A stretch of DNA of 64,000 nt from Gemmatimonas sp. (GTDB taxonomy: Bacteria > Gemmatimonadota > Gemmatimonadetes > Gemmatimonadales > Gemmatimonadaceae). Shown here in pieces: positions 14,383 through 29,868 of the stretch. Location: contig PNKL01000001.1 in NCBI GenBank assembly GCA_013822425.1, forward strand, positions 1 through 64,000, in the 5' to 3' direction. The stretch's first letter is position 1; every line of letters begins with the position of its first letter. The notes under the pieces are model-generated. The model made no database searches, was not told the origin of the DNA, and saw nothing but the letters and a program-made list of their open reading frames with translations. A program made the position numbers and the translations under genes.

Positions 14383-16269
14383 ATGTCCGCTTCCGCCACC
14401 GCCGCTCCAGCGCCGCCGAAGGTCCTGCGCGTTCCCGAGCATACCGTTGAAATCGTCTCCGACTCTGGTGAGGGCGCCCAGAAGTGCGGACAGATCTTTG
14501 GGGCCGTGTCGGCCAAGATGGGCAATGGCGTCTGGACCGTGGAACTCATCCCGGCCGAAATCCAGCCGCCGCCGCGCGTTCCCGAGGGGGCGTCGGGCAA
14601 CCGCATCCGCCTCGGCGAGCACACGGTCACCAACTGGGGCGATCGCACCGACCTGGTGGTGGCCTTCAATGAACAGGTGCTCCTCGCCCGGCATCGCGTG
14701 GACGCCCTTGCCGACAACGCCGTTCTGCTCGTTGAGGACTGCTGGGCGCGCAGCGAGGATACGGACATCGTGGCGCAATGGAACGCGGCCCTGAAGGAAC
14801 TGTCCGGCAAGCACTACCGGATCATCCCGGTGGCGATGGAAGACGAGTGCCTCACCATCGTCGACAACCCGAAGAAGGGCAAGAACATGTACGCCCTGGG
14901 CCTGCTGGCCCGCATCTACGGGCGCGACATGGAGCTCATCAAGGCGCAGATCGCTCACGCCTTCCGCAAGAAGAGCGAGGAGGTCTACAAGCAGAACGTC
15001 GCTCTCCTCGAACTCGGCTTCCATTGGGCCGAGGACAACATCGACTTCCGCGTCGAGATCCCGACCCATCCGGCGGAGACGCCGCTGGTCGTGATGAACG
15101 GCAACGAGGCGATCGGCATGGGCGCCATTGCGTCGGGCATGGAACTCTGCGCCATGTATCCGATCACGCCGGCGACCTCGGTGTCGCACTATCTGTCCGA
15201 GGTGTTCGAGAAGTTCGGCGGCATCGTGCACCAGGCCGAGGATGAAATCGCCGCGGCCGGCGTTGCGATCGGCGCCTCGTACTCCGGCAAGGTGGCGTTC
15301 ACTATCACCTCCGGCCCCGGACTCGCGCTGAAGACCGAGATGCTGGGCCTCGCCGTGATGACGGAGACGCCGCTCGTGCTGGTGGACGTGCAACGCGGCG
15401 GCCCGAGCACCGGCCTCCCCACCAAGGTGGAGCAATCGGACCTGCTGGCGGCCATCTACGGCCAGACGGGCGATGCGCCGCATATCGTGATGGCGCCGGC
15501 CACCATTGAGGAGTGCTTCCACGTCATGATCACCGCGCGGCGCCTCGCCGAGACGTTCCGCACGCTGGTGATGGTGCTCACCGACGCCAACCTGGCGACG
15601 GGTGTCTCGCCGTATCCCAAGCCGACGCTCGACGAACAGTGGCAGGCCGCGCCGCTCGATCTCGCGCCGGTGCGCGACGGACAGAAGCCCTACGACTGGA
15701 ACACGGAGACGGGGCTCAGCGAGCGCATTATCCCGGGCCGGTCGGGCGGCATGTTCACCCTGACCGGTCTCTCGCACGACGATCGCTCGAAGGTGGCGTA
15801 CGCCGCCGACATCCACCAGCACTCGTCGGCCATGCGCAGCCGGAAGATCGCGGTGCTGCAGAGCCTGCTGAAGCCGCCCACGGTGTACGGCGACGACAAG
15901 GGCGACCTGCTGGTCGTCGGCTGGGGGAGCACCAAGGGCGCCATCGAGGAAGCGGTGGACCGCGCGCGCAACGAAGGCTTCAAGGTCTCGGCGCTGCACC
16001 TGCGATTCCTCTCGCCGCTCGAGCCCGGGCTGAAGCCGATCTTCAAGAAGTTCAAGAAGGTGATGACCGTCGAGATCAACTACTCCGACGAAATCGGCGA
16101 CCCGTACGTGACCGAGGAGAACCGCCGCCGCGGCCAGCTGTCCATCCTGCTGCGCAATGCGACCCTCGTGGACGTGGACTGCTGGGGGCGCGTGCCGGGC
16201 GAGCCGCTTCGCCCGATGTCGATTCTCGAAGCGATTCGCGGCCGCCTGCCGCGTGGAGGTGCCGCGTGA
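14383..16269 (+). CDS. korA: 2-oxoacid:ferredoxin oxidoreductase, fused gamma-alpha subunit
   Basis: The alpha subunit, with the gamma domain fused at its N-terminus, of a two-subunit OFOR that oxidatively decarboxylates a 2-oxoacid (such as 2-oxoglutarate) to acyl-CoA and reduces ferredoxin. Residues 1-200 are the POR gamma domain (VSDSGEGAQKCGQIFGAVSA). The alpha part carries MYPITPATS, ITSGPGLALKTEMLGLAVMTETPLVLVDVQRGGPSTGLPT in pieces, and the transketolase-like C-terminal domain LLVVGWGSTKGAIEEA. The 628 residues match fused KorA proteins. Its stop overlaps the GTG of korB. The substrate is not fixed by sequence; KorAB-type enzymes are most often 2-oxoglutarate-specific. Confidence 0.9.
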   Translation: MSASATAAPAPPKVLRVPEHTVEIVSDSGEGAQKCGQIFGAVSAKMGNGVWTVELIPAEIQPPPRVPEGASGNRIRLGEHTVTNWGDRTDLVVAFNEQVLLARHRVDALADNAVLLVEDCWARSEDTDIVAQWNAALKELSGKHYRIIPVAMEDECLTIVDNPKKGKNMYALGLLARIYGRDMELIKAQIAHAFRKKSEEVYKQNVALLELGFHWAEDNIDFRVEIPTHPAETPLVVMNGNEAIGMGAIASGMELCAMYPITPATSVSHYLSEVFEKFGGIVHQAEDEIAAAGVAIGASYSGKVAFTITSGPGLALKTEMLGLAVMTETPLVLVDVQRGGPSTGLPTKVEQSDLLAAIYGQTGDAPHIVMAPATIEECFHVMITARRLAETFRTLVMVLTDANLATGVSPYPKPTLDEQWQAAPLDLAPVRDGQKPYDWNTETGLSERIIPGRSGGMFTLTGLSHDDRSKVAYAADIHQHSSAMRSRKIAVLQSLLKPPTVYGDDKGDLLVVGWGSTKGAIEEAVDRARNEGFKVSALHLRFLSPLEPGLKPIFKKFKKVMTVEINYSDEIGDPYVTEENRRRGQLSILLRNATLVDVDCWGRVPGEPLRPMSILEAIRGRLPRGGAA

Positions 16270-17219
16270 GTTATACCTGTGGATTGCTCCCCGTCCTCGA
16301 GCAGGGCGACGACCACCACTACGAGATGTCCGAGTACGAAGGCGCCCGCGCCCGCTGGTGCCCGGGCTGCGGCGACCACTCGGTGCTCACCGCGGTGCAG
16401 CGCCTGCTGGCCGCCGAACAGTTGATCCCCGAACAGACGGTCTTCGTGTCGGGCATCGGCTGCTCCTCGCGCTTCCCGCACTACATGAAGACCTACGGCT
16501 TTCACGGCCTCCACGGCCGTGCGCTGCCCGTGGCAACGGGCATCAAGCTGCATCGCCCCGAGCTCACCGTCTTCGTGGCCATGGGCGACGGCGACTGCAC
16601 GTCCATCGGAGCGGCGCACTGGATCCACGCCATGCGCTACAACGTGGACATGACGGCGATGATGCTCGACAACGGCATCTACGGCCTGACCAAGAACCAG
16701 ACGTCGCCCACGACGCCGCAGGGCTTCAAGAGCAACACGCAGCCTTACGGGTCCTTCCTGCCGGCGCTGAACCCGATCGCGGCATCGCTCGGCGTCACCA
16801 ACGCGTCGTTCGTGGCGCAGACCGCCGAATGGGCGCCGTCGCACCTGTACGCGACGCTGCGCGCCGCGTACAAGCACAAGGGGTTCAGCTTCGTGCGCAT
16901 CCTGCAGCGCTGCCCGGTCTACACGCCGTCCCTCTTTCAGAGAGCGGTGCAGGACCCGGCAAACATCACGCTGCTGGTGCATGACGACGGCGTCGTGACG
17001 CCCGACCTCGAGAAGATCTACCAGTCGCAGACGCACCATGACCCGCGCGACCTCGCCGCCGCGCGCGCCCTTGCCGAGCAGTCCGACCGGATCAACCTCG
17101 GCGTGTTCTTCAAGGACCCGTCCAAGCCCCGTTACGAAGAGACGCGCCGTGTGGCCCCGCGCACCCCGGTCGAACGTGTCGCGCTGCTCGAAAAGGAGTT
17201 CGCCCGCTATGCCGTCTGA
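16266..17219 (+). CDS. korB: 2-oxoacid:ferredoxin oxidoreductase, beta (thiamine diphosphate) subunit
   Basis: Beta subunit of the same OFOR, 317 residues. It binds thiamine diphosphate through GDGDCTSIGAAHWIHAMRYN and the following MMLDNGIYGLTKNQTSP. RWCPGCGDHSVL near the N-terminus and GIGCSSRFPHYM supply cysteines of the [4Fe-4S] cluster found in KorB proteins. The GTG start at 16266 overlaps the korA stop (GTGA). A C-terminal tail (RVAPRTPVERVALLEKEFAR) is typical of this family. The next gene starts 11 bases before its end, so translation is coupled. Confidence 0.92.
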   Translation: MSYTCGLLPVLEQGDDHHYEMSEYEGARARWCPGCGDHSVLTAVQRLLAAEQLIPEQTVFVSGIGCSSRFPHYMKTYGFHGLHGRALPVATGIKLHRPELTVFVAMGDGDCTSIGAAHWIHAMRYNVDMTAMMLDNGIYGLTKNQTSPTTPQGFKSNTQPYGSFLPALNPIAASLGVTNASFVAQTAEWAPSHLYATLRAAYKHKGFSFVRILQRCPVYTPSLFQRAVQDPANITLLVHDDGVVTPDLEKIYQSQTHHDPRDLAAARALAEQSDRINLGVFFKDPSKPRYEETRRVAPRTPVERVALLEKEFARYAV

Positions 17220-18210
17220 TCCGCGCGTTGCCCAGGCGCTGGCCGCGCTGGCGCAACCCATTGCCGAGTTCCGCGCCGCGGTGCAGGGCGCGCTGGCGCA
17301 GGCCGACGCCTTCCTGGCCGCCCAGACCGCCGACGCCGCGTCGCAGGCAGTGCGCGCCGCCACCGAGCTGGGCGTCTTCGGCGGCGCGCACGTGGACGCC
17401 GCCAGGTTCGCCGCCATGTTCCCGGCCGTCGCCAAGGCCGACAAGACCTCGCTGGCCGCGCTGGAGAAGGCCGCCGGGATCCTGCGCCGCGTCGCGGGGC
17501 AGGGTGACGAGATGGCGGTCGCGCTCGTGACCGATGGCGTGAAGCTCGGCGCCACCATTGACGCGGCGCTCGCCGGCGCCGGGCAGGCCTTCGGCGCCAT
17601 CATCATCACCGAGCTTGTGCGCGGCGGCCGGTTCAAGAAGGCCGAGCACGAGAAACTGCTCGACCCCGCCGAGTTCCGCGCCTGGAACAACGCCGAGCGC
17701 CGGTTCGCGCCGCCGCTCGTCGTCGAGGTGGACGGCGCCGACCTGCATGCGGGCGCGCTGCTCGACTTCGCCGATGGCCGCGAGAAGATCGTGCTCGTCG
17801 TGCGCGGCAACGCGCCCCCCGCGGCGCTGGTGCGTTGCATCACGCCAGGGACGTTCGTCCTGCAAACCGTGGACGGCACCGGACTCGACCGGCTCGCGGG
17901 CTACGAAGGGCCGGCCATCGCCGCGTTGCTTCCCGAGGGAGCGGCCACGTTCATGCACGACCCGAACGCCGGCAAGGAACCCTGGCAGCGGCTCACCGTG
18001 CCCTTCCTCCCCACCGGGCCGTTCAAGGCGGTGGGCGGGTTCAGCGCGTGGCAAATGGAGCAGGACGTGACGATGCTGGCCGAACTGGCCCGCACGCCGT
18101 TCGTCGTGCCGAGCGCGCCCGGCGGCAAGGGCGCTCCGGCCATCGGCGCCGGCGAGGCCGTCGACCGCATCGCCTCCTGGCTGCTCGATACATCGGGTCT
18201 CAAGGCGTAA
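17209..18210 (+). CDS. Uncharacterised protein of the OFOR-Rnf operon
   Basis: A 333-residue, Ala-rich, soluble-looking protein that I do not recognise. There is no signal peptide, membrane segment or Fe-S motif; I see a single Cys (VRCITPG). The N-terminal ~110 residues look helical (ALAALAQPIAEFRAAVQGAL, then AALEKAAGILRRVAGQ) and the C-terminal part mixed (ADLHAGALLDFADGREKIVL, EPWQRLTVPFLPTGPFKAVG). It overlaps korB by 11 bases and precedes rnfB by 14 bases. That position argues for a role in OFOR-to-Rnf electron transfer, assembly or regulation, by guilt of association only. Confidence 0.6.
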   Translation: MPSDPRVAQALAALAQPIAEFRAAVQGALAQADAFLAAQTADAASQAVRAATELGVFGGAHVDAARFAAMFPAVAKADKTSLAALEKAAGILRRVAGQGDEMAVALVTDGVKLGATIDAALAGAGQAFGAIIITELVRGGRFKKAEHEKLLDPAEFRAWNNAERRFAPPLVVEVDGADLHAGALLDFADGREKIVLVVRGNAPPAALVRCITPGTFVLQTVDGTGLDRLAGYEGPAIAALLPEGAATFMHDPNAGKEPWQRLTVPFLPTGPFKAVGGFSAWQMEQDVTMLAELARTPFVVPSAPGGKGAPAIGAGEAVDRIASWLLDTSGLKA

Positions 18211-18224
18211 GGCCCGGAGACGCG

Positions 18225-19067
18225 ATGATCATCCTGCAGGCAGTCCTGATTCTCGGCGGCACCGCCCTGGTGTTCGCCATCTTCATCGCCGCCGCCAACA
18301 AGAAGCTGAAGGTCTGGGAAGACCCGCGCATTGACGTGGTGTCGGCCATGCTGCCGAACGCCAACTGCGGCGCGTGCGGACTCCCGGGATGCCGTGCGTT
18401 CGCCGAGAAGGCGGTCGCGGGCGGCATCCAGGTTTCCAAGTGCACCGTGTCGAACGCCGAGCGCATCGGCGAGATCGCGCACTTCCTCGGCGTTGACGCG
18501 GGTCAGGCCGTGAAGGTCGTCGCGCGCCTCCAGTGCGCCGGCGGCTCCAACGTGGCCGTCCAGCGCGCCGAATACCGCGGCCTCGGCACCTGCGAGGCGG
18601 CGGCGGCGGTGGCCGGCGGCGGCAAGGGGTGCGCCTGGGGTTGCCTCGGCCTCGCCGATTGCGAGCGCGCCTGCACCTTCGGCGCCATCACGATGAACCC
18701 GGAAGGGCTTCCCGTCGTGGACGTGGAGAAGTGCACCGCGTGCAACGACTGCGTGGTGGCGTGCCCCAAGGACCTGTTCGTGCTCCAGCAGCTGGATCAC
18801 CAGCTGCTCGTGCAGTGCAAGAACCTGGTGCAGGGCGACGTGGTGCTGGAGCAGTGCACCGTGGCCTGCACGACGTGCGGCAAGTGCGTGCTGGACGCCG
18901 CGCCCGGCTTGATCAGCGTGGCGAGTGGAGTGGCAGTCATCGACTACAGCAAGATCGCCGAGGCCGAGGAAAGCGCCGTGGAGCGCTGCCCGACCAACGC
19001 CATCGTCTGGCTGCGCGGCGCGCAATTCGCGCGCCAGCCGGCCCTGAGCAGTGCGGAGGCAGCATGA
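18225..19067 (+). CDS. rnfB: Rnf complex electron-transfer subunit B (polyferredoxin)
   Basis: Membrane-anchored polyferredoxin (280 residues) that accepts electrons from reduced ferredoxin in the Rnf complex. One N-terminal membrane helix (MIILQAVLILGGTALVFAIF) precedes the Fe-S domain NCGACGLPGC with a later Cys (SKC). Further cluster motifs follow: GCAWGCLGLADCERAC, CTACNDCVVACP, and CTVACTTCGKCV with a closing CPTNAI. This long multi-cluster form resembles RnfB of anaerobes such as clostridia and Bacteroidota. It is separated from the other rnf genes by the PFOR gene, which overlaps its stop as ATGA. Confidence 0.9.
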   Translation: MIILQAVLILGGTALVFAIFIAAANKKLKVWEDPRIDVVSAMLPNANCGACGLPGCRAFAEKAVAGGIQVSKCTVSNAERIGEIAHFLGVDAGQAVKVVARLQCAGGSNVAVQRAEYRGLGTCEAAAAVAGGGKGCAWGCLGLADCERACTFGAITMNPEGLPVVDVEKCTACNDCVVACPKDLFVLQQLDHQLLVQCKNLVQGDVVLEQCTVACTTCGKCVLDAAPGLISVASGVAVIDYSKIAEAEESAVERCPTNAIVWLRGAQFARQPALSSAEAA

Positions 19068-22000
19068 GTGCGACGAAGACCGGCGATGCCGGCAAAGCCA
19101 AGTACCCCGGTTCACGTCAGGCGCTTGATGGCTCGTACGCCGTCGTCGCGATGGAGACGGCGAGCAGCGAAGCGGCAGGCGCGTATCCCATCACGCCGTC
19201 CACCCAGATGGGCGAAGGCTGGGCGCAGGCCGTGGCCGAGGGCAAGGAAAACGTCAACGGCCGCCGGCTGTTGTTCTTTGAGCCGGAAGGCGAGCATGCG
19301 GCCGCGGCGGTGACCGCCGGCATGAGCATGGCCGGGCTGCGCTCGACGAACTTCTCGAGCGGGCAGGGCATCGCCTACATGCACGAGTCGCTCTACGCCG
19401 CCGTCGGCAAGCGCCTCACCTACGTGCTCAACGTCGCGGCGCGCGCCATGACCAAGCACGCGCTCAACGTGCACGCCGGCCACGATGACTATCACGCGGT
19501 GGATGACACGGGTTTTTTCCAGATCTTTGCCAAGGACGTGCAGGAAACGGCCGACCTCAACGTGATTGCGCACCGGATCGCCGAGCTGTCGCTGAACCCG
19601 GGCCTCATCGCGCAGGACGGCTTCCTCACGAGTCATGTCATCGAGTCGATGCAGCTGCCGGAGCGCGAGCTGATCAAGGAGTACCTCGGCGATCCGGCCG
19701 ACATGATCGAAAGCCCCACGCCGGCCCAGCGCCTTGTCTTCGGCGCCAGGCGGCGCCGCATTCCGGAGATGTTCGACCTCGACTACCCGGCCATGCTGGG
19801 CGTCGTGCAGAACCAGGACAGCTACGCGCAGGGTGTCGCTGCGCAGCGCCCGTTCTACTTTGACCACATCGCCGACCTCGCCGACCAGGCGTTCGCCGAG
19901 TATGCGGCGCTCACCGGGCGCCAGTACGCCCGCGTGACGGGCTACCGGCTCGACGACGCGGAGTGGGTGATCGCGGGGCAGGGCTCGGTGGTGAGCAACG
20001 CCGAGGCGGTGGTGGATCACCTGCGCGAGACGCGCGGCCTCAAGGTGGGCGTGCTCAACCTCACGATGTTCCGCCCGTTCCCGTCCGATCTCATCACGAA
20101 GATGCTCGCCGGCAAGAAAGGCGTCGTGGTCATGGAGCGCACCGACCAGCCGCTGGCGGTGGACCCGCCGATGCTGCGCGAGATGCGCGCCGCGATGTCG
20201 AAGGGCGTGGAGAACTTCCGCAACGCCAATGTGCACGAGGGACTGGCGGCGCTGCGCCCCGAGCAGATCCCCAACTTCTTCTCGGCCTGCTTTGGACTCG
20301 GCAGCCGCGACCTGCAGCCCGGCGACATCATTGCCGCGGTGGACAACATGCTGCCGGGCGGCTCCGGACGCCGGCAGGTCTACCTGGGCATCGACTTCAT
20401 CCGTGAAGGCACCAGGCTGCCCAAGCTGCAGATCTGGCAGGAGACGCTGGAAGACGAGTATCCGAACCTGCACACGCTCACGCTGCCGGCATCCACCAGC
20501 GTGAACCTGCTGCCGAAGGGCGCCACCGCGCTGCGCATCCACTCGGTGGGCGGCTGGGGCGCCATCACGATGGGCAAGAACCTGTCAATGACGGCCTTCG
20601 AGCTCTTCGATATGCACATCAAGGCGAACCCGAAGTACGGCTCGGAGAAGAAGGGCCAGCCGACGACGTTCTACGCGGTGATGGCGCACGAGCCCATCCG
20701 GCTCAACTGCGAACTCAAGAACGTGGACGTGGTGCTCTCGCCCGATCCGAACGTCTTCCGCCACAGCGACCCGCTCGACGGGCTGGCCGAGGGCGGGGTG
20801 TTCGTCATCCAGTCCGACCTGCCGCCCGAAGCGTTCTGGCAGACCCTGCCGGCGCCGGCACGGCGCACGATCATTGACCGCAAGATCAGGATCTACTGCC
20901 TCGACGCGTTCGCCATCGCCATGGCGGAGGCCTCGGATGCCGACTTGCGCTATCGCATGCAAGGGGCGGCGTTCATGGGCGCGTTCTTCCGCACGTCGCC
21001 GATTCTCGAGCGCGAGAAGCAGACCGAAGAGGCGCTGTTCAAGGGCATCGGCAAGCAGCTGCAGAAGAAGTTCGGCGGGCGCGGCGCCAGCGTGGTGGAA
21101 GACAACGTGCGCGTCATTCGCCGCGGCTACGACGAAGTCAGGGAAGTGACACCGGTGGGCGGCGACTTCGGCGCCGAGCAGGGCGACGTGCCGCACATGC
21201 CGGTCCTGATGGAGGCGGAGAACCAGCAGCAGGGCATCGGGCACGAGGGGCGCTTCTGGGAGCAGGTCTGCGCGATGTGCAAGGTCGGGCAGGACGGCAT
21301 CGCCGATCCGTTCGCCGCCATCAGCGCCATTCCGGCCGCCACCAGCGCCATCCGCGACATGAGCGGCTTGCGCATGGAGGTGCCGGACTTCATCGCCGAG
21401 AAGTGCACGGGGTGCGCGCAGTGCTGGATCCAGTGCCCCGACTCGGCCATTCCCGGCCTCGTCAGCAGCTTCGACGACGTGCTGAACGCCGCCATTGACG
21501 TGTCGACGAATGGGAGCCGGATGGAACGCATCCGGCCGATGGTGAAGAACTGGGCCAGGGAAGCGCAGAAGATCCTGCAGAAGGATCCCGCCACGAAGGT
21601 GCCGGACGCGTTCGCCAAGGCGTACGAGAATGTCGCGAACAAGATGGGATGGGACGCGGAGCGCCGCGCGGCCACCGACGTGGAGTTCCACGCCGTGCAG
21701 TCGCGCATCGCCAACTTCCCGCTCGCGCGCACCAAGCCGTTCTTCGACGCGCTCGAGGGGAAGAGCAAGGGGTCGGGCGGACTCCTCTCGGTGACGGTCA
21801 ACCCCGAGGCGTGCAAGGGGTGCAACCTGTGCGTCGAGGTCTGTCCCGACGGCGCGCTCGTGACCATCAAGCAGGACGAGCCGGGGCTGGTGAAGCTCCG
21901 CAGCAACTGGGAGATGTGGAACAGGCTCCCCGACACCGACGACCGCTTCATCAACGTCAGTGACGTCGACGAGGGAATCGGCGTGCTCTCGTCGTTGCTG

Positions 22001-24091
22001 CTCAAGAAGACGACGTACCGCGCCATGGTGGGCGGCGACGGCGCCTGCATGGGGTGCGGCGAGAAGACCGCCGTGCACCTCATCCTCTCGGCCATCTTCG
22101 CGCAGATGGCGCCGAAGGTCGCCAGGCAGGTGACCAAGCTCGAGGCGCTGATCCAGGCGCTCGAGGACAAGGCGCGCGAGATCGTGGGTTCCACCACGGA
22201 CCTGGCCGCCGCGCTGAGCGGCAAGGGCGAGGCGGTGAAGCTGGACGCCGCGCACCGGCACCAGCTCGAACTCATCGGCAAGGCGATCACCGAACTGAAA
22301 GACCTGCGGTGGCGCTATGTCGAGGGCCCGAGCGGCAAGGGGCGCGCCATGGTCGGCATGTCGAACTCCACCGGCTGCTCCTCGGTGTGGGGCTCGACCT
22401 ATCCGTACAACCCGTATCCGTTCCCGTGGGTCAACCACCTCTTCCAGGACTCCACGTCCATCGCCATCGGCCTCTTCGACGCGCACATGCGCAAGATGGG
22501 TGACGGCTTCGTGGCCGTGCGACGCGCCGAGAAGCTGGTGGATGGCACGTACGACCACGTCGCTGACGAAGCAGCCTTCAAGGCGTTCACGTGGATGGAT
22601 TTCACCGACGAGGAGTTCTTCCTCTGCCCGCCGATCATCGCCATGGGCGGCGACGGCGCGATGCTCGACATCGGGTTCCAGAACCTCTCGCGCCTGCTCG
22701 CCTCGGGCAAGCCGGTACGCGTGGTGGTGCTCGATACGCAGGTCTACTCGAACACCGGCGGCCAGGCCTGCACCAGCGGCTACACGGGGCAGGTGGCCGA
22801 CATGTCGGGTTTCGGCAAGGCGCAGCACGGCAAGACCGAGACACGCAAGGAACTGGGCCTGCTCGGCATCGCCCACCGCGGCACCTTCGTGCACCAGTCG
22901 TCGCAGGCAGCGGCGTCGCACCTCATCGCCGGCGTGCTCAAGGGCATGCACAAGCGGCGTCCGGTGCTTCTCAACATCTACACGCCGTGTCCGGTGGAAC
23001 ACGGGCTCGCGGATGACTGGTCGCAGGAAGCGGCCCGCTTTGCGCTCGAGAGCCGCGCCTTCCCGTTCCTGACGTACGATCCGGATGCCGGCCCGACGTT
23101 CGCCGACTGCCTGTCGCTCGAGGGCAATCCGTCGCCCGACGCCGACTGGCCGACGTACGAGATTCGCTATCTGGACGATGCGGGTGCCGAACAGACGCTC
23201 GAAGTCCCGCTGACCGTCGCCGACTGGGCCGCCACCGAGGCACGCTTCAAGCAGCACTTCTCCGAACTGCCCAAGGACCTGTACGACTACGCCATTCCGT
23301 TTGACGAGTATCTCAAGCTGTCGAAGGAAGCGCGCGCCACCAGGACGCCCTTCATCCATGCCGTCAACAAGCAGCGTCACCTGCGCCGGCTGAAGGTCTC
23401 GCCGGAAATGGGACTGCTGGCGGACGAGCGCCTGCAGCACTGGTCGCAGCTACGCCAGCTGGCCGGCCTCGTCGTGTCGGACACGGCGCGCAACACGGTG
23501 TCGGGCGAGATCGAGGCCGCGTTCGAGGTCAAGGTGGCCGCGCTGCGTGCCGAGTACGAGGCCAAGATCGCGCAGCTCAAGAAGGAGTTCCCGCAGCAGA
23601 TCGCGCGCCGCCTGGCCGAAGGGCTCATGCGCCACGGTGGCGGCGGCGCGCTGAATGAACTGCTGGCCACGCTCCCGGCGGTGGAACCGTCGGGTGGCAA
23701 TGGCGCGGCGGCTCCGTCTGCCGTGACGGTCGCCGCCCCGGCCGCGCCGGTGCCGGTGCCAGCGCCGGCTCCCGCGACGGCTGCCGTGGCCGTGGCCGAC
23801 GTGGCTCCCGCCGCCGCGCCAGCCGAGGAAGACGAGTCCCTCGCTCTCGAGGCGTACATCGACTCGGCGCGGTGCACGACCTGCAACGAGTGCACCAACC
23901 TGAACAAGAAGATGTTCGTCTACAACGCCGCCAAGCAGGCGGAAATCAAGGATGTCACGGCCGGCACGTTCCAGCAGCTCGTGCTGGCCGCCGAGCGCTG
24001 CCCCGTCTCGATCATCCATCCAGGGACACCGCTCAACCCGAAGGAGAAGGACCTGGAGAAGTGGGTGAAGCGCGCCGCGAGGTTCAACTGA
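19064..24091 (+). CDS. nifJ: Giant pyruvate:ferredoxin oxidoreductase with C-terminal ferredoxin extension
   Basis: Single-chain PFOR of 1,675 residues, about 500 longer than typical NifJ (near 1,170). It would convert pyruvate and CoA to acetyl-CoA, CO2 and reduced ferredoxin. Order: N-terminal PP domain (AYPITPSTQMGEGW), transketolase-like domain II, gamma-like domain (VGGWGAITMGKNLSMTAFEL), a two-cluster ferredoxin (CTGCAQCWIQCPDSAIP near 780, CKGCNLCVEVCPDGAL near 916), the CMGCGEK proximal-cluster segment (about 994) and the TPP site GDGAMLDIG (about 1196). An extension follows: a coiled-coil-like stretch, an Ala/Pro linker, and a ferredoxin-like tail CTTCNEC...CPVSIIHPG (about 1603-1650). 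ATGA overlap with rnfB, TGATG overlap with rnfC. Confidence 0.93.
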   Translation: MSATKTGDAGKAKYPGSRQALDGSYAVVAMETASSEAAGAYPITPSTQMGEGWAQAVAEGKENVNGRRLLFFEPEGEHAAAAVTAGMSMAGLRSTNFSSGQGIAYMHESLYAAVGKRLTYVLNVAARAMTKHALNVHAGHDDYHAVDDTGFFQIFAKDVQETADLNVIAHRIAELSLNPGLIAQDGFLTSHVIESMQLPERELIKEYLGDPADMIESPTPAQRLVFGARRRRIPEMFDLDYPAMLGVVQNQDSYAQGVAAQRPFYFDHIADLADQAFAEYAALTGRQYARVTGYRLDDAEWVIAGQGSVVSNAEAVVDHLRETRGLKVGVLNLTMFRPFPSDLITKMLAGKKGVVVMERTDQPLAVDPPMLREMRAAMSKGVENFRNANVHEGLAALRPEQIPNFFSACFGLGSRDLQPGDIIAAVDNMLPGGSGRRQVYLGIDFIREGTRLPKLQIWQETLEDEYPNLHTLTLPASTSVNLLPKGATALRIHSVGGWGAITMGKNLSMTAFELFDMHIKANPKYGSEKKGQPTTFYAVMAHEPIRLNCELKNVDVVLSPDPNVFRHSDPLDGLAEGGVFVIQSDLPPEAFWQTLPAPARRTIIDRKIRIYCLDAFAIAMAEASDADLRYRMQGAAFMGAFFRTSPILEREKQTEEALFKGIGKQLQKKFGGRGASVVEDNVRVIRRGYDEVREVTPVGGDFGAEQGDVPHMPVLMEAENQQQGIGHEGRFWEQVCAMCKVGQDGIADPFAAISAIPAATSAIRDMSGLRMEVPDFIAEKCTGCAQCWIQCPDSAIPGLVSSFDDVLNAAIDVSTNGSRMERIRPMVKNWAREAQKILQKDPATKVPDAFAKAYENVANKMGWDAERRAATDVEFHAVQSRIANFPLARTKPFFDALEGKSKGSGGLLSVTVNPEACKGCNLCVEVCPDGALVTIKQDEPGLVKLRSNWEMWNRLPDTDDRFINVSDVDEGIGVLSSLLLKKTTYRAMVGGDGACMGCGEKTAVHLILSAIFAQMAPKVARQVTKLEALIQALEDKAREIVGSTTDLAAALSGKGEAVKLDAAHRHQLELIGKAITELKDLRWRYVEGPSGKGRAMVGMSNSTGCSSVWGSTYPYNPYPFPWVNHLFQDSTSIAIGLFDAHMRKMGDGFVAVRRAEKLVDGTYDHVADEAAFKAFTWMDFTDEEFFLCPPIIAMGGDGAMLDIGFQNLSRLLASGKPVRVVVLDTQVYSNTGGQACTSGYTGQVADMSGFGKAQHGKTETRKELGLLGIAHRGTFVHQSSQAAASHLIAGVLKGMHKRRPVLLNIYTPCPVEHGLADDWSQEAARFALESRAFPFLTYDPDAGPTFADCLSLEGNPSPDADWPTYEIRYLDDAGAEQTLEVPLTVADWAATEARFKQHFSELPKDLYDYAIPFDEYLKLSKEARATRTPFIHAVNKQRHLRRLKVSPEMGLLADERLQHWSQLRQLAGLVVSDTARNTVSGEIEAAFEVKVAALRAEYEAKIAQLKKEFPQQIARRLAEGLMRHGGGGALNELLATLPAVEPSGGNGAAAPSAVTVAAPAAPVPVPAPAPATAAVAVADVAPAAAPAEEDESLALEAYIDSARCTTCNECTNLNKKMFVYNAAKQAEIKDVTAGTFQQLVLAAERCPVSIIHPGTPLNPKEKDLEKWVKRAARFN

Positions 24092-25419
24092 TGGCTTTCT
24101 TCGGCTTTGCACACGGCGTGCATCCGCCCGAGGAGAAGGGGCTCACCAGCGGGCTCCCCATCCGTCGCATGCCGTATCCCGAGGAGATCGTGCTTCCCCT
24201 GCGCCAGCACGCCGGCAAACCGGCGAAGCTCTGCGTACGGGTGGGCGATCACGTCGAGCGCGGTGATCCCGTTGGCCTGGCCGACGGCTACATGTCGGTG
24301 CCCATCCATGCGTCGGCGGCGGGGACGATCTCCGCCATCGACTTGTGGCCGCACCCCGACGGCAGCTACGCGCAGACGGTGCACATCAAGGTTGACAAGT
24401 ACGCGGTGCAGTTGCCGCGTCCGCGCCTCGTGCCGCGCTGGGAAGGGCTCACGGTGGACCAGGTGGTGAAGGCCGTGCAGGACGCCGGTGTCGTCGGACT
24501 CGGCGGCGCCGCCTTCCCCACGCACGTCAAGCTGGCGCCGCCCAAGGACTACAAGGTCCACACGCTGATCATCAACGGCGCGGAATGCGAGCCGTACCTC
24601 ACCTCGGACCACCGCACCATGGTGGAGTATCCGGAGCGCGTGCACTTCGGCTGCCGCGTGATGATGCACACGTTGGGCGTGAGCAAGGCGGTGATCGGCG
24701 TCGAGAAGAACAAGCCCGACGCCATCGCAGCGCTCGAACGCACCAGGCCCAAGGACCTCGACATCACCATCCTCCCGCTCACGGTGAAATATCCGCAGGG
24801 CGCCGAGAAGATGCTCATCCACGCGGTGACCGGCGTGGAAGTGCCGTCGGGCAAGCTGCCGGTGACGGTGGGCGTGGTCGTGCAGAACGTCGGCTCGCTC
24901 GCCGCGATCGCCGAGGTGTTCGACACCGGCCTGCCGCTGATCGAGCGTATCGTGACGGTCACCGGGCACGGACTCACGCGCCCGGCGAATCTCATCGTCC
25001 CGGTGGGGACCAAGCTCAAGGACCTGCTTGCCTACTGCGACGGCGTCACCCCGGACGCCCGCGAAGTCATCAATGGCGGGCCGATGATGGGCATGGCGGT
25101 GTCGAACCTCGACGCTCCGGTGCTCAAGGGGACCACGGGCATCGTGGTGCTCACGTCGGACGAGGTGCGCGCGGAGAAGATCTACCCCTGCATCCACTGC
25201 GGGCGCTGCCTCGACGCCTGCCCGGTCTTCCTGAATCCCTCGTGGCTCGGTGACCTGGCGCGCGTGAAGCGCTACCAGGAGATGGCGGACCATCACCTGG
25301 CCGACTGCATGCTGTGCGGCTCGTGTTCGTACGTGTGCCCCTCCAACATTCCGTTGTCGCAGCTCTTCCAGGCCAGCAAGGCGGCACTGCGCCGCGTCCA
25401 GACGGCGGGGGCCGCATGA
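24091..25419 (+). CDS. rnfC: Rnf complex subunit C (NAD/FMN and Fe-S subunit)
   Basis: Peripheral Rnf subunit of 442 residues that exchanges electrons with NAD(H). It has the N-terminal barrel-sandwich/SLBB-type region (GDHVERGDPVGLADGYMSVP), the NADH-FMN-binding Rossmann portion (GLGGAAFPTHVKL, IINGAECEPYLTSDHR) and two [4Fe-4S] motifs, CIHCGRCLDACP (about 367) and CMLCGSCSYVCPSNIP (about 406). Length and motifs agree with RnfC of other bacteria. It starts on the base that ends the PFOR stop codon, a tight coupling of PFOR and Rnf synthesis. It ends in ATGA overlap with rnfD. Confidence 0.95.
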   Translation: MAFFGFAHGVHPPEEKGLTSGLPIRRMPYPEEIVLPLRQHAGKPAKLCVRVGDHVERGDPVGLADGYMSVPIHASAAGTISAIDLWPHPDGSYAQTVHIKVDKYAVQLPRPRLVPRWEGLTVDQVVKAVQDAGVVGLGGAAFPTHVKLAPPKDYKVHTLIINGAECEPYLTSDHRTMVEYPERVHFGCRVMMHTLGVSKAVIGVEKNKPDAIAALERTRPKDLDITILPLTVKYPQGAEKMLIHAVTGVEVPSGKLPVTVGVVVQNVGSLAAIAEVFDTGLPLIERIVTVTGHGLTRPANLIVPVGTKLKDLLAYCDGVTPDAREVINGGPMMGMAVSNLDAPVLKGTTGIVVLTSDEVRAEKIYPCIHCGRCLDACPVFLNPSWLGDLARVKRYQEMADHHLADCMLCGSCSYVCPSNIPLSQLFQASKAALRRVQTAGAA

Positions 25420-26414
25420 CCGCACCCAACCTGATCGTCACCGCGTCGCCGCACCTGAAGGACCGCGACACGACGCCGCGCATCATGTGGACGGTGGCGG
25501 CGAGCCTCGTGCCGGTGGTGCTCTCGTCGGCCTTCTTCTTCGGCATCAGCGCCATTCTGGTGATTCTCGCGGCGATGCTTGGCGCGCTGCTCACCGAGCG
25601 CGCGCTCGCCAAGCCCGGCACGCTGCAGGATGGATCGGCGATGATCACCGGCCTCCTGCTCGGTCTCAGCCTGCCGCCCGGCATCCCGTTGTGGATGGCG
25701 GCGCTCGGCGGCGTCTTCGGCATCGGCTTCGGCAAGGTGATCTGGGGCGGACTCGGCCAGAACGCGTTCAATCCCGCGCTCATCGGCCGTGCCTTCCTGC
25801 AGACGGCGTTCCCGGTGGCCATCACCACGTGGCCCACGCCCGGCGGCGACTTCTTTGCGCTCAAGGGCGACCTCTTCGCCTTCCCGTTCATGCATCCGGT
25901 GTCGGATGTCGTGACGTCCGCGACACCGCTCGGCCTGTTCAAGTTCGAGCAGAAGCTCACGTCGGTCGTGGACCTCGTGCTCGGCACGACGGGCGGGTCG
26001 GTGGGCGAGACGTCGGCACTCGTGATCCTGATCTGCGGCGCCTACCTCGCCTGGAAGGGCTACCTCAACTGGCGCTCGCCCGTCTCGATTCTCCTCACCG
26101 TCTTCGTGGCGAGTCAGTTGCTGCACTGGTTCAACGGCAAGTATCCGGACGGCCTGTTCATGGTCTTCTCGGGCGGCCTGATGCTTGGCGCCGTGTACAT
26201 GGCCACCGACATGGTGACCGTGCCGACGACCAACAAGGGACGCTGGGTCTTTGGCGTCTGCACCGGGTTGATCGTGGTGATCATCCGTGTCTTCGGCGGC
26301 CTGCCGGAAGGCGTGATGTACGCCATCCTGATCATGAACGCCTTCACGCCGTTCATTAACCGCGCCACGCAGCCCGTCGTCTTCGGCACGCGCACGCTGA
26401 AGGAGGCCAAATGA
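25416..26414 (+). CDS. rnfD: Rnf complex membrane subunit D (flavoprotein)
   Basis: Integral membrane Rnf subunit of 332 residues with eight to nine hydrophobic helices (for example IMWTVAASLVPVVLSSAFFF and VFGVCTGLIVVIIRVFGGLP). The conserved LGGVFGIGFGKVIWGGLGQN and NPALIGRAFLQ blocks are typical of RnfD/NqrB. The covalent FMN threonine should be T170 in TSATPLG, the site modified by ApbE in this family. It overlaps rnfC and rnfG by ATGA. RnfD is thought to help form the ion-translocation path. Confidence 0.95.
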   Translation: MTAPNLIVTASPHLKDRDTTPRIMWTVAASLVPVVLSSAFFFGISAILVILAAMLGALLTERALAKPGTLQDGSAMITGLLLGLSLPPGIPLWMAALGGVFGIGFGKVIWGGLGQNAFNPALIGRAFLQTAFPVAITTWPTPGGDFFALKGDLFAFPFMHPVSDVVTSATPLGLFKFEQKLTSVVDLVLGTTGGSVGETSALVILICGAYLAWKGYLNWRSPVSILLTVFVASQLLHWFNGKYPDGLFMVFSGGLMLGAVYMATDMVTVPTTNKGRWVFGVCTGLIVVIIRVFGGLPEGVMYAILIMNAFTPFINRATQPVVFGTRTLKEAK

Positions 26415-27085
26415 CCGGCCATGCGCATGGGCACGGGGCGCCACCAGCCCCGACGCCGGATGCCGGCAGCTCGTCGCTGCGGCTGACGGTGACGCTGGCG
26501 CTGTTTGGCGCCCTCGCCGGCGCCGTGCTGGCGTACACGTACCAGAAGACGCTCCCGCCCATCCGGAAGTTCGCGGCAGAGCGCGTCGAAGTGGCGGTGA
26601 AGGAAGTGCTCGGCTCGCCGGCGAAGCTCGACACGCTGTTCCTCGTCGGCGACAGGCTGAGCAAGACGCCGCCCGCCGGGGTGGACGCGCTGGAAGCCGT
26701 CAAGCTCTTCATCGGATCCAACGCCAGCGGCGAGCCGACCGGAGTGGCCGTGGAAGAAGGATCGCCCGGCTTCTCCGGCGAGGTGCGCCTGCTGGTGGGG
26801 TTCCACCCCGTCACGGGGGCGCTCACCGGGTTCAAGGTGCTGGCGCAGAAGGAGACGCCCGGGCTCGGCGACAAGATCATCAAGGATTCGAGCTTCGCCC
26901 GGCAGTTCATCGGCAAGCTGGCGAATCCGCTCAAGGGTGACAAGAACCCGACGACGGATCCCAGCACCGTGCAGACCATCACCGGTGCGACCATCACGTC
27001 GAAGACCGTCATCAAGGTGATCAACAAGGCCGTGGAGACGTGGAAGCCGCGTCTCGAGGCCTATGCGAAGGGAGGTGGCCAGTGA
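26411..27085 (+). CDS. rnfG: Rnf complex subunit G (covalently flavinylated)
   Basis: Rnf subunit of 224 residues with a short His/Pro-rich cytoplasmic head, one membrane helix (LTVTLALFGALAGAVLAYTY) and an extracytoplasmic FMN-binding domain. The FMN attachment motif TGATITS is present; T194 is the predicted acceptor of FMN from ApbE. GFKVLAQKETPGLGDKI is the conserved block of the FMN_bind domain. ATGA overlap with rnfD and GTGA overlap with rnfE. Confidence 0.95.
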   Translation: MTGHAHGHGAPPAPTPDAGSSSLRLTVTLALFGALAGAVLAYTYQKTLPPIRKFAAERVEVAVKEVLGSPAKLDTLFLVGDRLSKTPPAGVDALEAVKLFIGSNASGEPTGVAVEEGSPGFSGEVRLLVGFHPVTGALTGFKVLAQKETPGLGDKIIKDSSFARQFIGKLANPLKGDKNPTTDPSTVQTITGATITSKTVIKVINKAVETWKPRLEAYAKGGGQ

Positions 27086-27765
27086 CCACCGACATTGCCA
27101 CGGCCGCTGAAGCGGCCGAGCCGATCGTCCCGGGCGCCCCGCCGCCACAGCCGCTGCGACTGGATTTCTGGCGCGGCATCGCCGACGACAATCCGGTGAT
27201 GATCCAGATGCTGGGCCTCTGCCCGGCGATGGCGGTCAGCAACTCGCTCGAGAACGGCATTGGCATGAGCGCCGCCGTGATCTTCGTCCTGTTCTGCTCG
27301 AGCCTGCTGGTCTCGTCGCTGCGCAAGATCATCCCCGGCGAGGTGCGCCTCGCCAGCTACATCCTGATCATCGCGACGTTCGTCACGATCTCGGATCTCG
27401 TGATGCAGGCCTACTTCCCGCTGCTCTCCAGGACCCTTGGCCCCTTCGTGCCGCTCATCGTGGTAAACTGCATCATCCTCGGCCGCGCCGAGGCGTTTGC
27501 CGGCAAGGTCAAGCCGATGCGCGCCGCCGCCGATGCGCTGGGCATGGGCCTCGGCTTCACGCTGGCGCTGTGCACCATCAGCGCCTTCCGCGAGATCGTC
27601 GGCAACGGCACGTTGCTCGGGTTCCACCTGTTCGGCCCGCACTATGAACCGTGGGTCTTCATGATCATGCCGCCCGGTGGCTTCCTGACCATGGGACTCA
27701 TGTTCCTGGTGATGGGCTGGTGGGGCGAGCGCAAGAAGGCGAAGCTCACGGAGGTGGCCGCATGA
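27082..27765 (+). CDS. rnfE: Rnf complex membrane subunit E
   Basis: Six-helix membrane subunit of 227 residues, paralogue of RnfA. DNPVMIQMLGLCPAMAVSNSLENG carries the first conserved Cys, and PLIVVNCIILGRAEAFA the second; in the Rnf/NQR family these cysteines of the A/E (NqrE/D) pair hold an iron or [2Fe-2S] centre in the membrane. The GTG start at 27082 has GGAGGTGG just upstream. The ~30-residue soluble N-terminal tail is longer than in most RnfE proteins. ATGA overlap with rnfA. Confidence 0.94.
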   Translation: MTTDIATAAEAAEPIVPGAPPPQPLRLDFWRGIADDNPVMIQMLGLCPAMAVSNSLENGIGMSAAVIFVLFCSSLLVSSLRKIIPGEVRLASYILIIATFVTISDLVMQAYFPLLSRTLGPFVPLIVVNCIILGRAEAFAGKVKPMRAAADALGMGLGFTLALCTISAFREIVGNGTLLGFHLFGPHYEPWVFMIMPPGGFLTMGLMFLVMGWWGERKKAKLTEVAA

Positions 27766-28340
27766 TCTCCAACCTCGCGTGGATCTTCTTCTCCACCTTG
27801 CTCATCAACAACTTCACGCTGGCCATGTTCCTGGGGCTGTGCCCGTTCTTCGGCGTGACAAGCAAGGTGGACACCGGCTGGCGCCTCGGGGTGGCCAACA
27901 CGTTCGTGCTGGTCATCGTGTCGGTGAGCGCCTGGGCGCTGAACACCTACGTGCTGACGAATGCGCCCTACCTGCGCACCATCGCCTTCATCGTGGTCAT
28001 CGCCTCGATGGTGCAGATCGTCGAGATGATCATCAAGAAGTCCCTGCCGACGCTCTTCCGCGAGCTGGGCATCTACCTGCCGCTGATCACGACCAACTGT
28101 GCCATCCTCGGCCTCGCGCTGTTCCAGACGACGCGCAAGTACAGCCTGCTCGAGGGCATCTTCTTCGCCTTCGGCGCGGGACTCGGCCTCACGCTGGCGC
28201 TCTCGCTGATGGCTTCCATCCGTGAGCGGATGGACCTGGCTGACGTCCCGGTCGTGGCCAAGCGGATGGGCCTCGTGATGGTCATCGCGTCGTGCCTGTC
28301 CATGGCCTTCATGGGCTTCGCCGGCATGGGGAGCGGCTAG
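27762..28340 (+). CDS. rnfA: Rnf complex membrane subunit A
   Basis: Six-helix membrane protein of 192 residues. NNFTLAMFLGLCPFFGVT contains the first conserved Cys and LPLITTNCAILGLALF the second, the ligands of the RnfA/RnfE intramembrane iron centre. Length and pattern match RnfA/NqrE. The stop TAG is followed immediately by the ATG of a 47-residue Cys-rich peptide, so the two should be translated together. With B, C, D, G and E this completes a full Rnf set in the window. Confidence 0.95.
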   Translation: MISNLAWIFFSTLLINNFTLAMFLGLCPFFGVTSKVDTGWRLGVANTFVLVIVSVSAWALNTYVLTNAPYLRTIAFIVVIASMVQIVEMIIKKSLPTLFRELGIYLPLITTNCAILGLALFQTTRKYSLLEGIFFAFGAGLGLTLALSLMASIRERMDLADVPVVAKRMGLVMVIASCLSMAFMGFAGMGSG

Positions 28341-28484
28341 ATGATGGACGGACTGTTCGGCATCGCGATCGGCGCGCTGCTTTTCGCGCTCTACGGCCTC
28401 GTGCGCATCAGAAGCTGCGCCGGCCACTGCACTGGTTGCTCCAATTCTTGTGATCGCCACGAGAGGCATGCCCACAATGACTGA
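28341..28484 (+). CDS. 47-residue Cys-rich single-helix membrane peptide (possible NqrM-like iron-delivery factor)
   Basis: A very small frame: MMDGLFGIAIGALLFALYGL, then VRIRSCAGHCTGCSNSCDRH and a short His-rich tail. It has one membrane helix followed by four cysteines (C26, C30, C33, C37) in C-x3-C-x2-C-x3-C spacing plus several His. It starts directly after the rnfA stop and overlaps the apbE start. In the Na+-NQR system the small Cys-rich membrane protein NqrM is needed to insert the iron centre between NqrD and NqrE, the homologues of RnfE/RnfA. A similar role here is my inference; sequence homology to NqrM is not evident. FeoB-associated Cys-rich peptides have a similar look. Confidence 0.7.
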   Translation: MMDGLFGIAIGALLFALYGLVRIRSCAGHCTGCSNSCDRHERHAHND

Positions 28485-29469
28485 CCAATCCCTTCCACGG
28501 CCGTTCGGCCGCCGCGAGTTCATCGCCATCGGCACCGGCGCGTTGGCGCTGGCGGCGCTCCCCATCGCACTGCGCCGCCACGTGGCCATCGCGCGGCGCA
28601 CCGTGCCGGTGATGGGCACCATCGCCGAACTGACGGTCGTGCACCGCGACGAGGCGGTGGCGCAGGAGGCCCTCGAGGCCGCCCTCGCCGAGCTGCGCTG
28701 GGTGGAGACGACGATGACGCGCTTCAGCGCGACCTCGGACATCGGCCGCGCCAACGCTGCCGCCGCGCGCGAGGGCGTGACGGTGCGTCCCGAGACGGCG
28801 CGCCTGGTCGAGACGGCACTGCGCTGGTCGTCGGCCAGCGACGGCCGCTTCGACCCGGCGCTCGGCGCCGCGTCCGAGCTGTGGGACGTGACCAACCGCC
28901 ACGAGCCGCCGCCGTCGGAGCAGGTGGCGCGCCTCGCCAACCGGTCGTTCTGGCGCCACGTGGACCTCTCGGTCGGCGCGGGGCAGGGCGTCCTGCGCTA
29001 CGGCGACCGTGACCTGCACCTCGACCTCGGCGGCATCGGCAAGGGGTATGCCATTGACCGCGCCGTGCAGGCCCTGCGCAACCGCGGCATCGAGCACGCC
29101 ATCGTGAACCTCGGCGGCGATCTCTACGCCATCGGCGAGTCGCCCGAGGGCGGCGCGTGGCGCGTCGGCATCCGGTCGCCCGACGACCTGCGCGCGGTGG
29201 CGCGCACGCTCGAGGTGAGCAACCGCGCGGTGGCCACGTCCGGCGACTACGAGCGCTTCTTCCGGTATCGCGGGACGCGCTATCACCACCTGATGGACCC
29301 CGCCACCGCCGCGCCGCGGCAAACGTCGGTGCGCAGCGTGACCGTGCTCGCCGACAAGTGCGTGGACGCCGAGCCCTGTGCGGTGTCAGTGTTTGGCTTG
29401 TCGGAGGACCGTGCGCTCGCGTTTGCGCGCACGCAGATTCCCGGCGTTGACGTCCTTACGATCGCCTGA
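28477..29469 (+). CDS. apbE: FAD:protein FMN transferase
   Basis: ApbE-family enzyme of 330 residues that attaches FMN from FAD to Thr in (S/T)GAT-type motifs, here most likely RnfD T170 and RnfG T194. The N-terminus has a twin-arginine-like signal (GRREFIAIGTGALALAALP), so it acts outside the cytoplasm. Family blocks are VMGTIAELTVV, WVETTMTRFSATSDIGRAN, DLGGIGKGYAIDRAV, NLGGDLYAIGESPEG and the metal-binding region around HHLMDPATAAP. I chose ATG 28477, with GAGAGG ten bases upstream; ATG 28468 lies one base from it. It overlaps the Cys-rich peptide by eight bases. Confidence 0.95.
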   Translation: MTDQSLPRPFGRREFIAIGTGALALAALPIALRRHVAIARRTVPVMGTIAELTVVHRDEAVAQEALEAALAELRWVETTMTRFSATSDIGRANAAAAREGVTVRPETARLVETALRWSSASDGRFDPALGAASELWDVTNRHEPPPSEQVARLANRSFWRHVDLSVGAGQGVLRYGDRDLHLDLGGIGKGYAIDRAVQALRNRGIEHAIVNLGGDLYAIGESPEGGAWRVGIRSPDDLRAVARTLEVSNRAVATSGDYERFFRYRGTRYHHLMDPATAAPRQTSVRSVTVLADKCVDAEPCAVSVFGLSEDRALAFARTQIPGVDVLTIA

Positions 29470-29514
29470 TCTCCCCGTCCAGAACCTGCTGGCGACACCC
29501 CACGAGGAGCTTTT

Positions 29515-29868
29515 ATGAAGCAGAGTCAACTGTTCTGCAGCGCGTGCGACCGGCAGGTGCGCGTGATGATCTCGGAGGCGCCACTTGGCGAACACCAGGC
29601 CACGGTACACGACGACGAGCTGATCTGCCTGGAGATCGGCGAGCACTGCACGGGCAACCTCTGCCCGCTGGGGGCCGCCGAGCCCAACGCCATGGTGTCG
29701 CGGCTCATCCACGAGGGCCTCTCGACGGACGGCCTGCGCAAGGTGAAGGCCACCTGCCCGAGCTGCGGCATCGAGGCCGAGTTCGTGCTCTACGGCAAGG
29801 GACGGGCCTCGTGCACCGTGTGTGGTACCGCGGCCAAGTGGGAAGCGTCGCACGTCGAGCCGCTGTAG
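29515..29868 (+). CDS. Small zinc-ribbon protein of unknown function
   Basis: A 117-residue cytosolic protein with MKQSQLFCSACDRQVRVMIS at the N-terminus (C8, C11), two more cysteines in HCTGNLCPLG, and a second CxxC pair set in CPSCGIEAEF and SCTVCG near the C-terminus. The pattern suggests one or two zinc ribbons or a rubredoxin-like knuckle; I cannot name a family. It follows apbE by 45 bases with CGAGGAGC before its ATG and ends before a long inverted repeat, so it is probably the last gene of the korAB-rnf operon. Confidence 0.7.
   Translation: MKQSQLFCSACDRQVRVMISEAPLGEHQATVHDDELICLEIGEHCTGNLCPLGAAEPNAMVSRLIHEGLSTDGLRKVKATCPSCGIEAEFVLYGKGRASCTVCGTAAKWEASHVEPL

Follow-up and report, generated by a model that had tools for sequence, protein, structure and literature searches.

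Described systems and the gene run in the window

The closest described systems are the Rnf complexes RnfABCDGE of Clostridium, Azotobacter and Thermotoga, with six subunits and apbE, the homodimeric pyruvate:ferredoxin oxidoreductases (PFOR) of Desulfovibrio africanus (1b0p) and Moorella thermoacetica (6cin), and the two-subunit KorAB of Mycobacterium tuberculosis, which is air-stable and functions in an aerobe (PMC2773412). In the excerpts of two papers on tubeworm symbionts (PMC6315080, PMC11636981), dimeric korAB is colocalised with genes of the tricarboxylic acid (TCA) cycle, and "PFOR-like" and Rnf genes occur in the same genomes. In a 64,000-nucleotide stretch of DNA from Gemmatimonas sp. 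(contig PNKL01000001.1; "the window" below), enzymes of these types are encoded in a single run of 13 genes, all on the + strand at 14383-29868, in the order korA-korB-unknown gene (unk333)-rnfB-PFOR-rnfC-D-G-E-A-cysteine-rich peptide-apbE-zinc ribbon, as the first-pass annotation of this DNA had listed them. Domain searches identified KorA, KorB, RnfB, a giant PFOR-type protein, RnfC, D, G, E, A and ApbE.

The locus has the same six Rnf subunits and apbE as the described RnfABCDGE systems, but its rnf operon is interrupted by PFOR after rnfB, a cysteine-rich membrane peptide is encoded 3' of rnfA, and haem-copper oxidases co-occur. Its PFOR shares the domain order and the catalytic, thiamine pyrophosphate (TPP) and three-cluster residues of the homodimeric enzymes; however, it is about 440-500 residues longer (helical inserts, a beta domain, a long helix, a linker and a tethered ferredoxin), its gene lies inside rnf, and it scores below the TIGR02176 cut-off. 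KorAB is of the same type as the M. tuberculosis enzyme, but is tied to PFOR and Rnf, with an apparent TPP-domain relic in between. No such arrangement appears in the operon and pyruvate passages of a 2025 RNF review (PMC12174285), and a search of open-access papers turned up no description of the layout.

We consider it probable that the products of the run form a module in which 2-oxoacid:ferredoxin oxidoreductases are physically coupled to Rnf, so that the oxidation of pyruvate and 2-oxoglutarate is linked to NAD+ reduction and ion pumping. The basis is the gene content and its conserved order, the catalytic residues that are retained or lost, the architecture of the PFOR tail, the homology of unk333 and co-occurrence; from these we infer the physical complex, the substrates, the direction, the ion and the role of unk333. 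The first-pass annotation had pictured a single Rnf pump fed by two 2-oxoacid oxidoreductases in a dedicated module, a picture that fits the layout of the window and is supported by the comparative evidence; the ferredoxin tail of PFOR, the identity of unk333, two further layouts (B and C, below) and the dead PFOR of layout C go beyond it.

Junctions and conservation of gene order

The genes are tightly packed. Four-base overlaps join korA to korB, rnfB to PFOR, and the successive pairs rnfC/D, D/G, G/E and E/A, PFOR and rnfC overlap by 1 base, korB and unk333 by 11 bases, and the cysteine-rich peptide gene and apbE by at least 8 bases, depending on the apbE start codon chosen; rnfA and the peptide gene abut, and gaps of 14 and 45 bases separate unk333 from rnfB and apbE from the zinc-ribbon gene. 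PFOR thus does lie between rnfB and rnfC and shares bases with both, as had been noted, whereas the statement that nearly all genes are joined by overlaps of 4 bases or fewer was slightly generous (7 of the 12 junctions, with one more abutting). Across loci (40-61 per junction) the median junction was -4 for korA-korB, rnfB-PFOR, rnfC-D, D-G and G-E, and -11 for korB-unk333. Just 5' of the run, at 13900-14030 of the window, there are short repeats rich in ccgccggcgattgcgcc.

Carriers of the module were sought with the unk333 protein in 200 genomes of the phylum, which gave 37 including the window's own genome. The order korA-korB-unk333-rnfB-PFOR-rnfC-D-G-E-A was kept in all 36 other carriers (36/36; the count disregards contig ends, N runs and small shuffles), with apbE next in most of them, and because the order is conserved in relatives a chance origin of the run is excluded. 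A scan of public genomes with a PFOR alignment retained the best 80 of 148 relatives, so that what is listed outside the phylum is a minimum; among these 80, the same order was found in records labelled Gemmatimonadota, Planctomycetota, Rokubacteria, Deltaproteobacteria and Gammaproteobacteria, the nearest matches being metagenome-assembled genomes (MAGs) labelled Gemmatimonadota. The taxon labels are those of the depositors, and with nearly all records being MAGs an isolated odd label may reflect misbinning. PFOR within rnf, which the first-pass annotation had made the touchstone of a coupled module, is therefore conserved over at least five named bacterial groups.

Planctomycetota sequences were scattered over several places in the PFOR tree, which points to horizontal transfer. 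The pairwise distances of six tested proteins correlated (r 0.67-0.87, 0/999 permutations); the module is co-inherited and probably co-transcribed. The rnfC gene of the run is the only one found in its genome, and none of 56 genomes of the same class without the module contained rnfC (0/56), by which other uses of Rnf in this class were rejected; rnfC is present in four members of a distant family. In several loci the module is extended or interrupted: a second rnfB-rnfC pair lies directly 3' of a complete module (L086:19436-21128), and two otherwise ordered modules contain inserted DNA, one about 7.6 kb between PFOR and rnfC (L119:9405-17039) and the other 1.4 kb between rnfD and rnfG (L068:15305-16740). 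The PFORs of L038 and L043 look cut, which was traced to N runs at their ends and not to real breaks.

We call the arrangement of the window, korAB-unk333-rnfB-PFOR-rnfCDGEA, layout A. In layout B, found in Gammaproteobacteria, rnfB-giant PFOR-rnfCDGEA has no korAB or unk333 upstream; its carriers include genomes that are closed or nearly so, such as G344 and G468. Layout C, also in Gammaproteobacteria, reads korA-korB-half-PFOR-rnfB-PFOR-rnfCDGEA, in several loci with sucCD between PFOR and rnfC.

The giant PFOR and its tethered ferredoxin

The PFOR gene (19064..24091, +) encodes 1675 aa, with the catalytic core at residues ~1-1400 and the domains POR_N, PFOR_II, POR, Fer4 and TPP. Domains I-VI, a TPP site and three [4Fe-4S] clusters mark it as PFOR-type, and its core retains Thr44, Glu77 and Arg127 as well as the TPP motifs and the full set of twelve cluster cysteines. 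Among layout A proteins the catalytic sites are conserved in 70-73 of 73 and the core cysteines in 73 of 73, and in layout B the catalytic and three-cluster residues are conserved in 14 of 14.

The protein owes its giant size to a [4Fe-4S] ferredoxin attached through a flexible linker. In an AlphaFold2 model, the C-terminal extension comprises a beta domain and a helix of 50 residues, followed by a disordered linker, likewise some 50 residues long, and a ferredoxin whose fold is predicted with confidence. The single long helix ahead of the linker covers residues 1473-1523 (23480..23632, +; helix 129-179 of the tail model, with a high predicted local distance difference test score, pLDDT), the Ala/Pro-rich linker residues ~1544-1592 (23693..23839, +; pLDDT mostly <60, length variable in the alignment), and the ferredoxin residues ~1595-1675 (23846..24088, +; Fer4_15/Fer4_13, pLDDT >95) with Cys 1604, 1607, 1610 and 1646. 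The best Foldseek match of the ferredoxin was 1fxr_A, D. africanus ferredoxin I (TM-score 0.84 by target, rmsd 0.9), and ferredoxins of this type are the partners that PFOR normally reduces. In layouts A and B the tail occurs on all complete PFORs embedded in rnf, and all sequences that cover the tail have its four ferredoxin cysteines (69 of 73 in layout A, 14 of 14 in layout B). It is absent from four related PFORs, two-gene enzymes without rnf in the stretch examined (a small control); the tail therefore goes with the Rnf linkage.

Layout C and its dead PFOR

In layout C the ferredoxin tail is borne by the half-PFOR and not by the PFOR. The latter lacks the catalytic Glu, the TPP loop and all four cysteines of the proximal cluster in 6 of 6 sequences, and yet it retains the eight cysteines that belong to the remaining two clusters, and its gene still follows rnfB. 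The half-PFOR lacks TPP residues and KorB is intact (6/6), so that, judging from these residues, KorAB alone looks catalytic. The strongest argument for a physical wire is that a dead PFOR with intact Fe-S ligands persists between rnfB and rnfC, and its retention in the block suggests that PFOR may also serve to conduct electrons; it would be a rare case in which the loss of catalysis reveals a structural role.

The sucCD genes were read from the sequence between PFOR and rnfC in four loci (L169, L172, L173 and L175), and those of L172 were confirmed by family search. Two genomes hold layouts B and C together, and pyruvate and 2-oxoglutarate may therefore each have their own pump there, whereas layout A puts both on one. 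The korAB and "PFOR-like" genes in the excerpts on tubeworm symbionts are probably related to layout C; the order korAB-half-PFOR-rnfB-PFOR-rnfC, the loss of PFOR catalysis, layouts A and B and the tethered ferredoxin are undescribed in those excerpts (PMC6315080, PMC11636981). Upstream of korA in layout C (L172:2609-6131; range L169-L175) there are a flavoprotein resembling fumarate reductase/succinate dehydrogenase and a NuoF-like protein, which with sucCD make a TCA segment around Rnf. In two gammaproteobacterial loci (L174:4-3396 and L180), a canonical-type PFOR lies directly 5' of a two-gene PFOR (677 + 541 aa).

KorAB and unk333

KorA (14383..16269, +; 628 aa) is the alpha subunit of a 2-oxoacid:acceptor oxidoreductase with the gamma domain fused (TIGR03710, 534 bits vs the NCBIfam cut-off of 482.75; Pfam POR_N + POR). 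KorB (16266..17219, +; 317 aa, GTG start), the beta subunit with TPP and one Fe-S cluster, matches TIGR02177 at 247.5 bits, slightly below the cut-off of 261.9. The fused gamma-alpha chain and a beta chain of this kind make KorAB a two-subunit enzyme, and the KorB motifs CxxCG, GCS, GDG and NxxYGxTxxQxSPT are retained in 86-89 of 89 relatives.

The gene between korB and rnfB, unk333 (17209..18210, +; 333 aa), has no match in Pfam and no significant one in NCBIfam. Its profile aligned by hhalign with PFOR 1139-1358 (E 4.6e-5; score 49.8 vs 35.8 for the best of 60 column shuffles) and more strongly with the syntenic half-PFOR (prob 94.8, E 5e-8, 255 columns; score 67.8 vs a shuffle maximum of 24.3), and its hidden Markov model (HMM) independently matches the giant PFOR of another genome (G215), which establishes homology to PFOR domain VI. 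The GDG/NTGG loop is missing and no TPP-binding residues were found in unk333, which therefore is a relic and not an enzyme. It is best read as a decayed copy of the TPP-domain region, a remnant of the half-PFOR of layout C minus the ferredoxin, which in layout A is borne by PFOR itself. That it should be an unrelated new protein resembling the TPP domain by chance is very improbable: a Foldseek search of the unk333 model gave no match at E <0.001 and the model is weakly TPP-enzyme-like, but such a chance leaves unaccounted for two profile comparisons far over their shuffles, the separate HMM match to PFOR and the exact synteny with the half-PFOR. The relic, which Pfam and NCBIfam lack, likely acts as an adaptor docking KorAB to PFOR/RnfB, and it doubles as a marker for locating the module.

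Coupling, substrates and direction of electron flow

In the coupled module as we propose it, KorAB (2-oxoglutarate) and the giant PFOR (pyruvate) would oxidise their substrates to acyl-CoA and CO2, and the three internal [4Fe-4S] clusters of PFOR would hand electrons to its own ferredoxin on the linker of about 50 residues. Tethered in this way, the ferredoxin would swing over to RnfB, so that free ferredoxin would not be needed; RnfB-A/E-G-D-C would then reduce NAD+ (at RnfC) while pumping Na+ or H+, KorAB would feed the same electron line via unk333, and the NADH might be consumed by O2 respiration at low tension. If this is true, some respiring bacteria channel the oxidation of pyruvate and 2-oxoglutarate straight into an ion pump, the TCA cycle gains a coupling site which NAD-linked dehydrogenases lack, the presence of Rnf in oxidase-bearing lineages is explained, and there is a natural wiring from substrate to pump that dispenses with free ferredoxin, a point of possible relevance to oxygen tolerance. 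A bolder version, which we regard as possible though tentative, is a membrane-bound supercomplex of 2-oxoacid:ferredoxin oxidoreductases (OFORs) and Rnf in which PFOR is mainly an electron wire and docking scaffold with a swinging ferredoxin. In layout A, PFOR would then act as enzyme and as wire at once, and the TPP-domain relic would connect KorAB to it; in layout C it would be wire only, leading from KorAB to Rnf, i.e., a 2-oxoglutarate-driven ion pump beside succinyl-CoA synthetase.

The enzymes might instead be merely co-regulated, i.e., co-expressed for low-oxygen growth and acting via soluble ferredoxin while physically uncoupled. Operons often hold the enzymes of one pathway without a complex, and the distance correlations are also expected from common ancestry; co-regulation, however, does not account for the fact that PFOR keeps strictly to its slot between rnfB and rnfC in several phyla, that it has a ferredoxin tail of its own, and that a PFOR devoid of catalysis is still kept in that slot, and we regard co-regulation alone as rather unlikely. 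The physically coupled module has points against it as well. Almost all matching genomes are MAGs; the PFORs of layout C are long-branched, so that their presumed descent from an active rnf-linked PFOR is argued from synteny and 25-30% identity; and the genome of the window also has genes for E1 of the pyruvate dehydrogenase (PDH) type and a second PorA-type enzyme, so the module is not the sole route and is probably conditional, for low oxygen. Finally, PFOR failed the TIGR02176 equivalog cut-off (408 vs 911 bits), which makes pyruvate uncertain, and we therefore name it PFOR-type and not a proven PFOR. The same failure would suit an enzyme for another 2-oxoacid (e.g., 2-oxoisovalerate or indolepyruvate) in a module for amino-acid breakdown, but the best overall sequence matches are PFORs of known structure and Thr44, Glu77 and Arg127 are kept, so that we take this to be quite improbable; by its sequence, pyruvate is most likely the substrate of the giant PFOR. 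For KorAB, 2-oxoglutarate is the most likely substrate, on which the sucCD genes near korAB in layout C bear indirectly.

As to direction, the main rival of the oxidative module is reverse flow, in which the tethered ferredoxin would be reduced by Rnf at the expense of NADH and the ion gradient, and PFOR and KorAB, driven by it, would act as carboxylases in reductive assimilation or a reversed oxidative TCA (roTCA) cycle. OFORs are reversible, Rnf is reversible too and operates backward in Azotobacter according to passages of the RNF review (PMC12174285), and the tubeworm-symbiont excerpts put Rnf beside genes of the reductive TCA (rTCA) cycle and leave a roTCA cycle open (PMC6315080, PMC11636981). 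Against this, ATP-citrate lyase (ACL) was not found in 36 of the 37 phylum carriers, by which an ACL-type reductive TCA cycle was rejected (the argument bears on that cycle and not on a roTCA cycle without ACL), and haem-copper oxidase genes occur in all 37 phylum carriers and in 20 of 20 other carriers tested; the haem-copper family includes nitric oxide reductases, and most best matches were full-length, near 500 bits. In the excerpts on the E. laminata symbiont, moreover, the dimeric korAB lies together with TCA genes that are well expressed, citrate synthase among them, and this could mean an oxidative TCA cycle (PMC6315080). Because ACL is absent and oxidases are present, we favour the oxidative direction, and reverse flow seems unlikely. 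The oxidase genes also bear out the remark of the first-pass annotation that an organism of this type is often considered aerobic. The second, PorA-type 2-oxoacid oxidoreductase of the window's genome adjoins an NADP-glutamate dehydrogenase (G000:C2:3500-5500; L060:2654-5523).

Rnf subunits and accessory genes

All six Rnf subunits are present, C, D, G and E scoring above their NCBIfam cut-offs and the best matches of A and B slightly below. RnfB (18225..19067, +; 280 aa) has a transmembrane (TM) segment and ferredoxin-type clusters with 20 Cys (PRK07118.1-3, 213.8 bits; TIGR01944, 66.2 vs 68.7), and is followed, beyond PFOR, by RnfC (24091..25419, +; 442 aa; TIGR01945, 519.9 vs 245.95), RnfD (25416..26414, +; 332 aa; TIGR01946, 300 vs 207), RnfG (26411..27085, +; 224 aa; TIGR01947, 114.8 vs 102), RnfE (27082..27765, +; 227 aa, GTG start; PRK12405, 236 vs 184) and RnfA (27762..28340, +; 192 aa; TIGR01943, 217.9 vs 229.3). 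RnfG carries the flavin-attachment motif TGATITS, with [ST]GAT in 62 of 63 sequences, and together with ApbE this provides for covalent FMN. The apbE gene (28477..29469, +; alternative starts 28450 and 28468; PF02424, 258 bits) encodes the predicted FMN transferase for RnfG/RnfD.

Between rnfA and apbE, a peptide of 47 aa (28341..28484, +) has one TM helix and a cysteine-rich tail. Short peptides with a TM segment and many cysteines follow rnfA in most of 40 loci (35 scored candidates, of which a few may be chance frames) and recur across labelled phyla. NqrM, the maturation factor of Na+-NQR, is cysteine-rich. It is likewise a small membrane protein whose gene comes after the pump genes and adjoins apbE, and by analogy the peptide is likely an Rnf Fe-S maturation factor. 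In contrast to NqrM, the peptide of the window itself has no Pfam match, neither to NqrM nor to FeoB_associated (PF12669), the nearest family, to which its relatives score 21-25 bits, below the cut-off of 27. ApbE and this NqrM-like peptide would complete the Rnf assembly kit, which we count in favour of the coupled module.

The last gene of the run encodes a zinc-ribbon-like protein (29515..29868, +; 117 aa) with paired Cys motifs and no significant family match. It is retained after apbE in many relatives, and in a few loci (L085, L108, L128) matches to it stand twice in tandem there.

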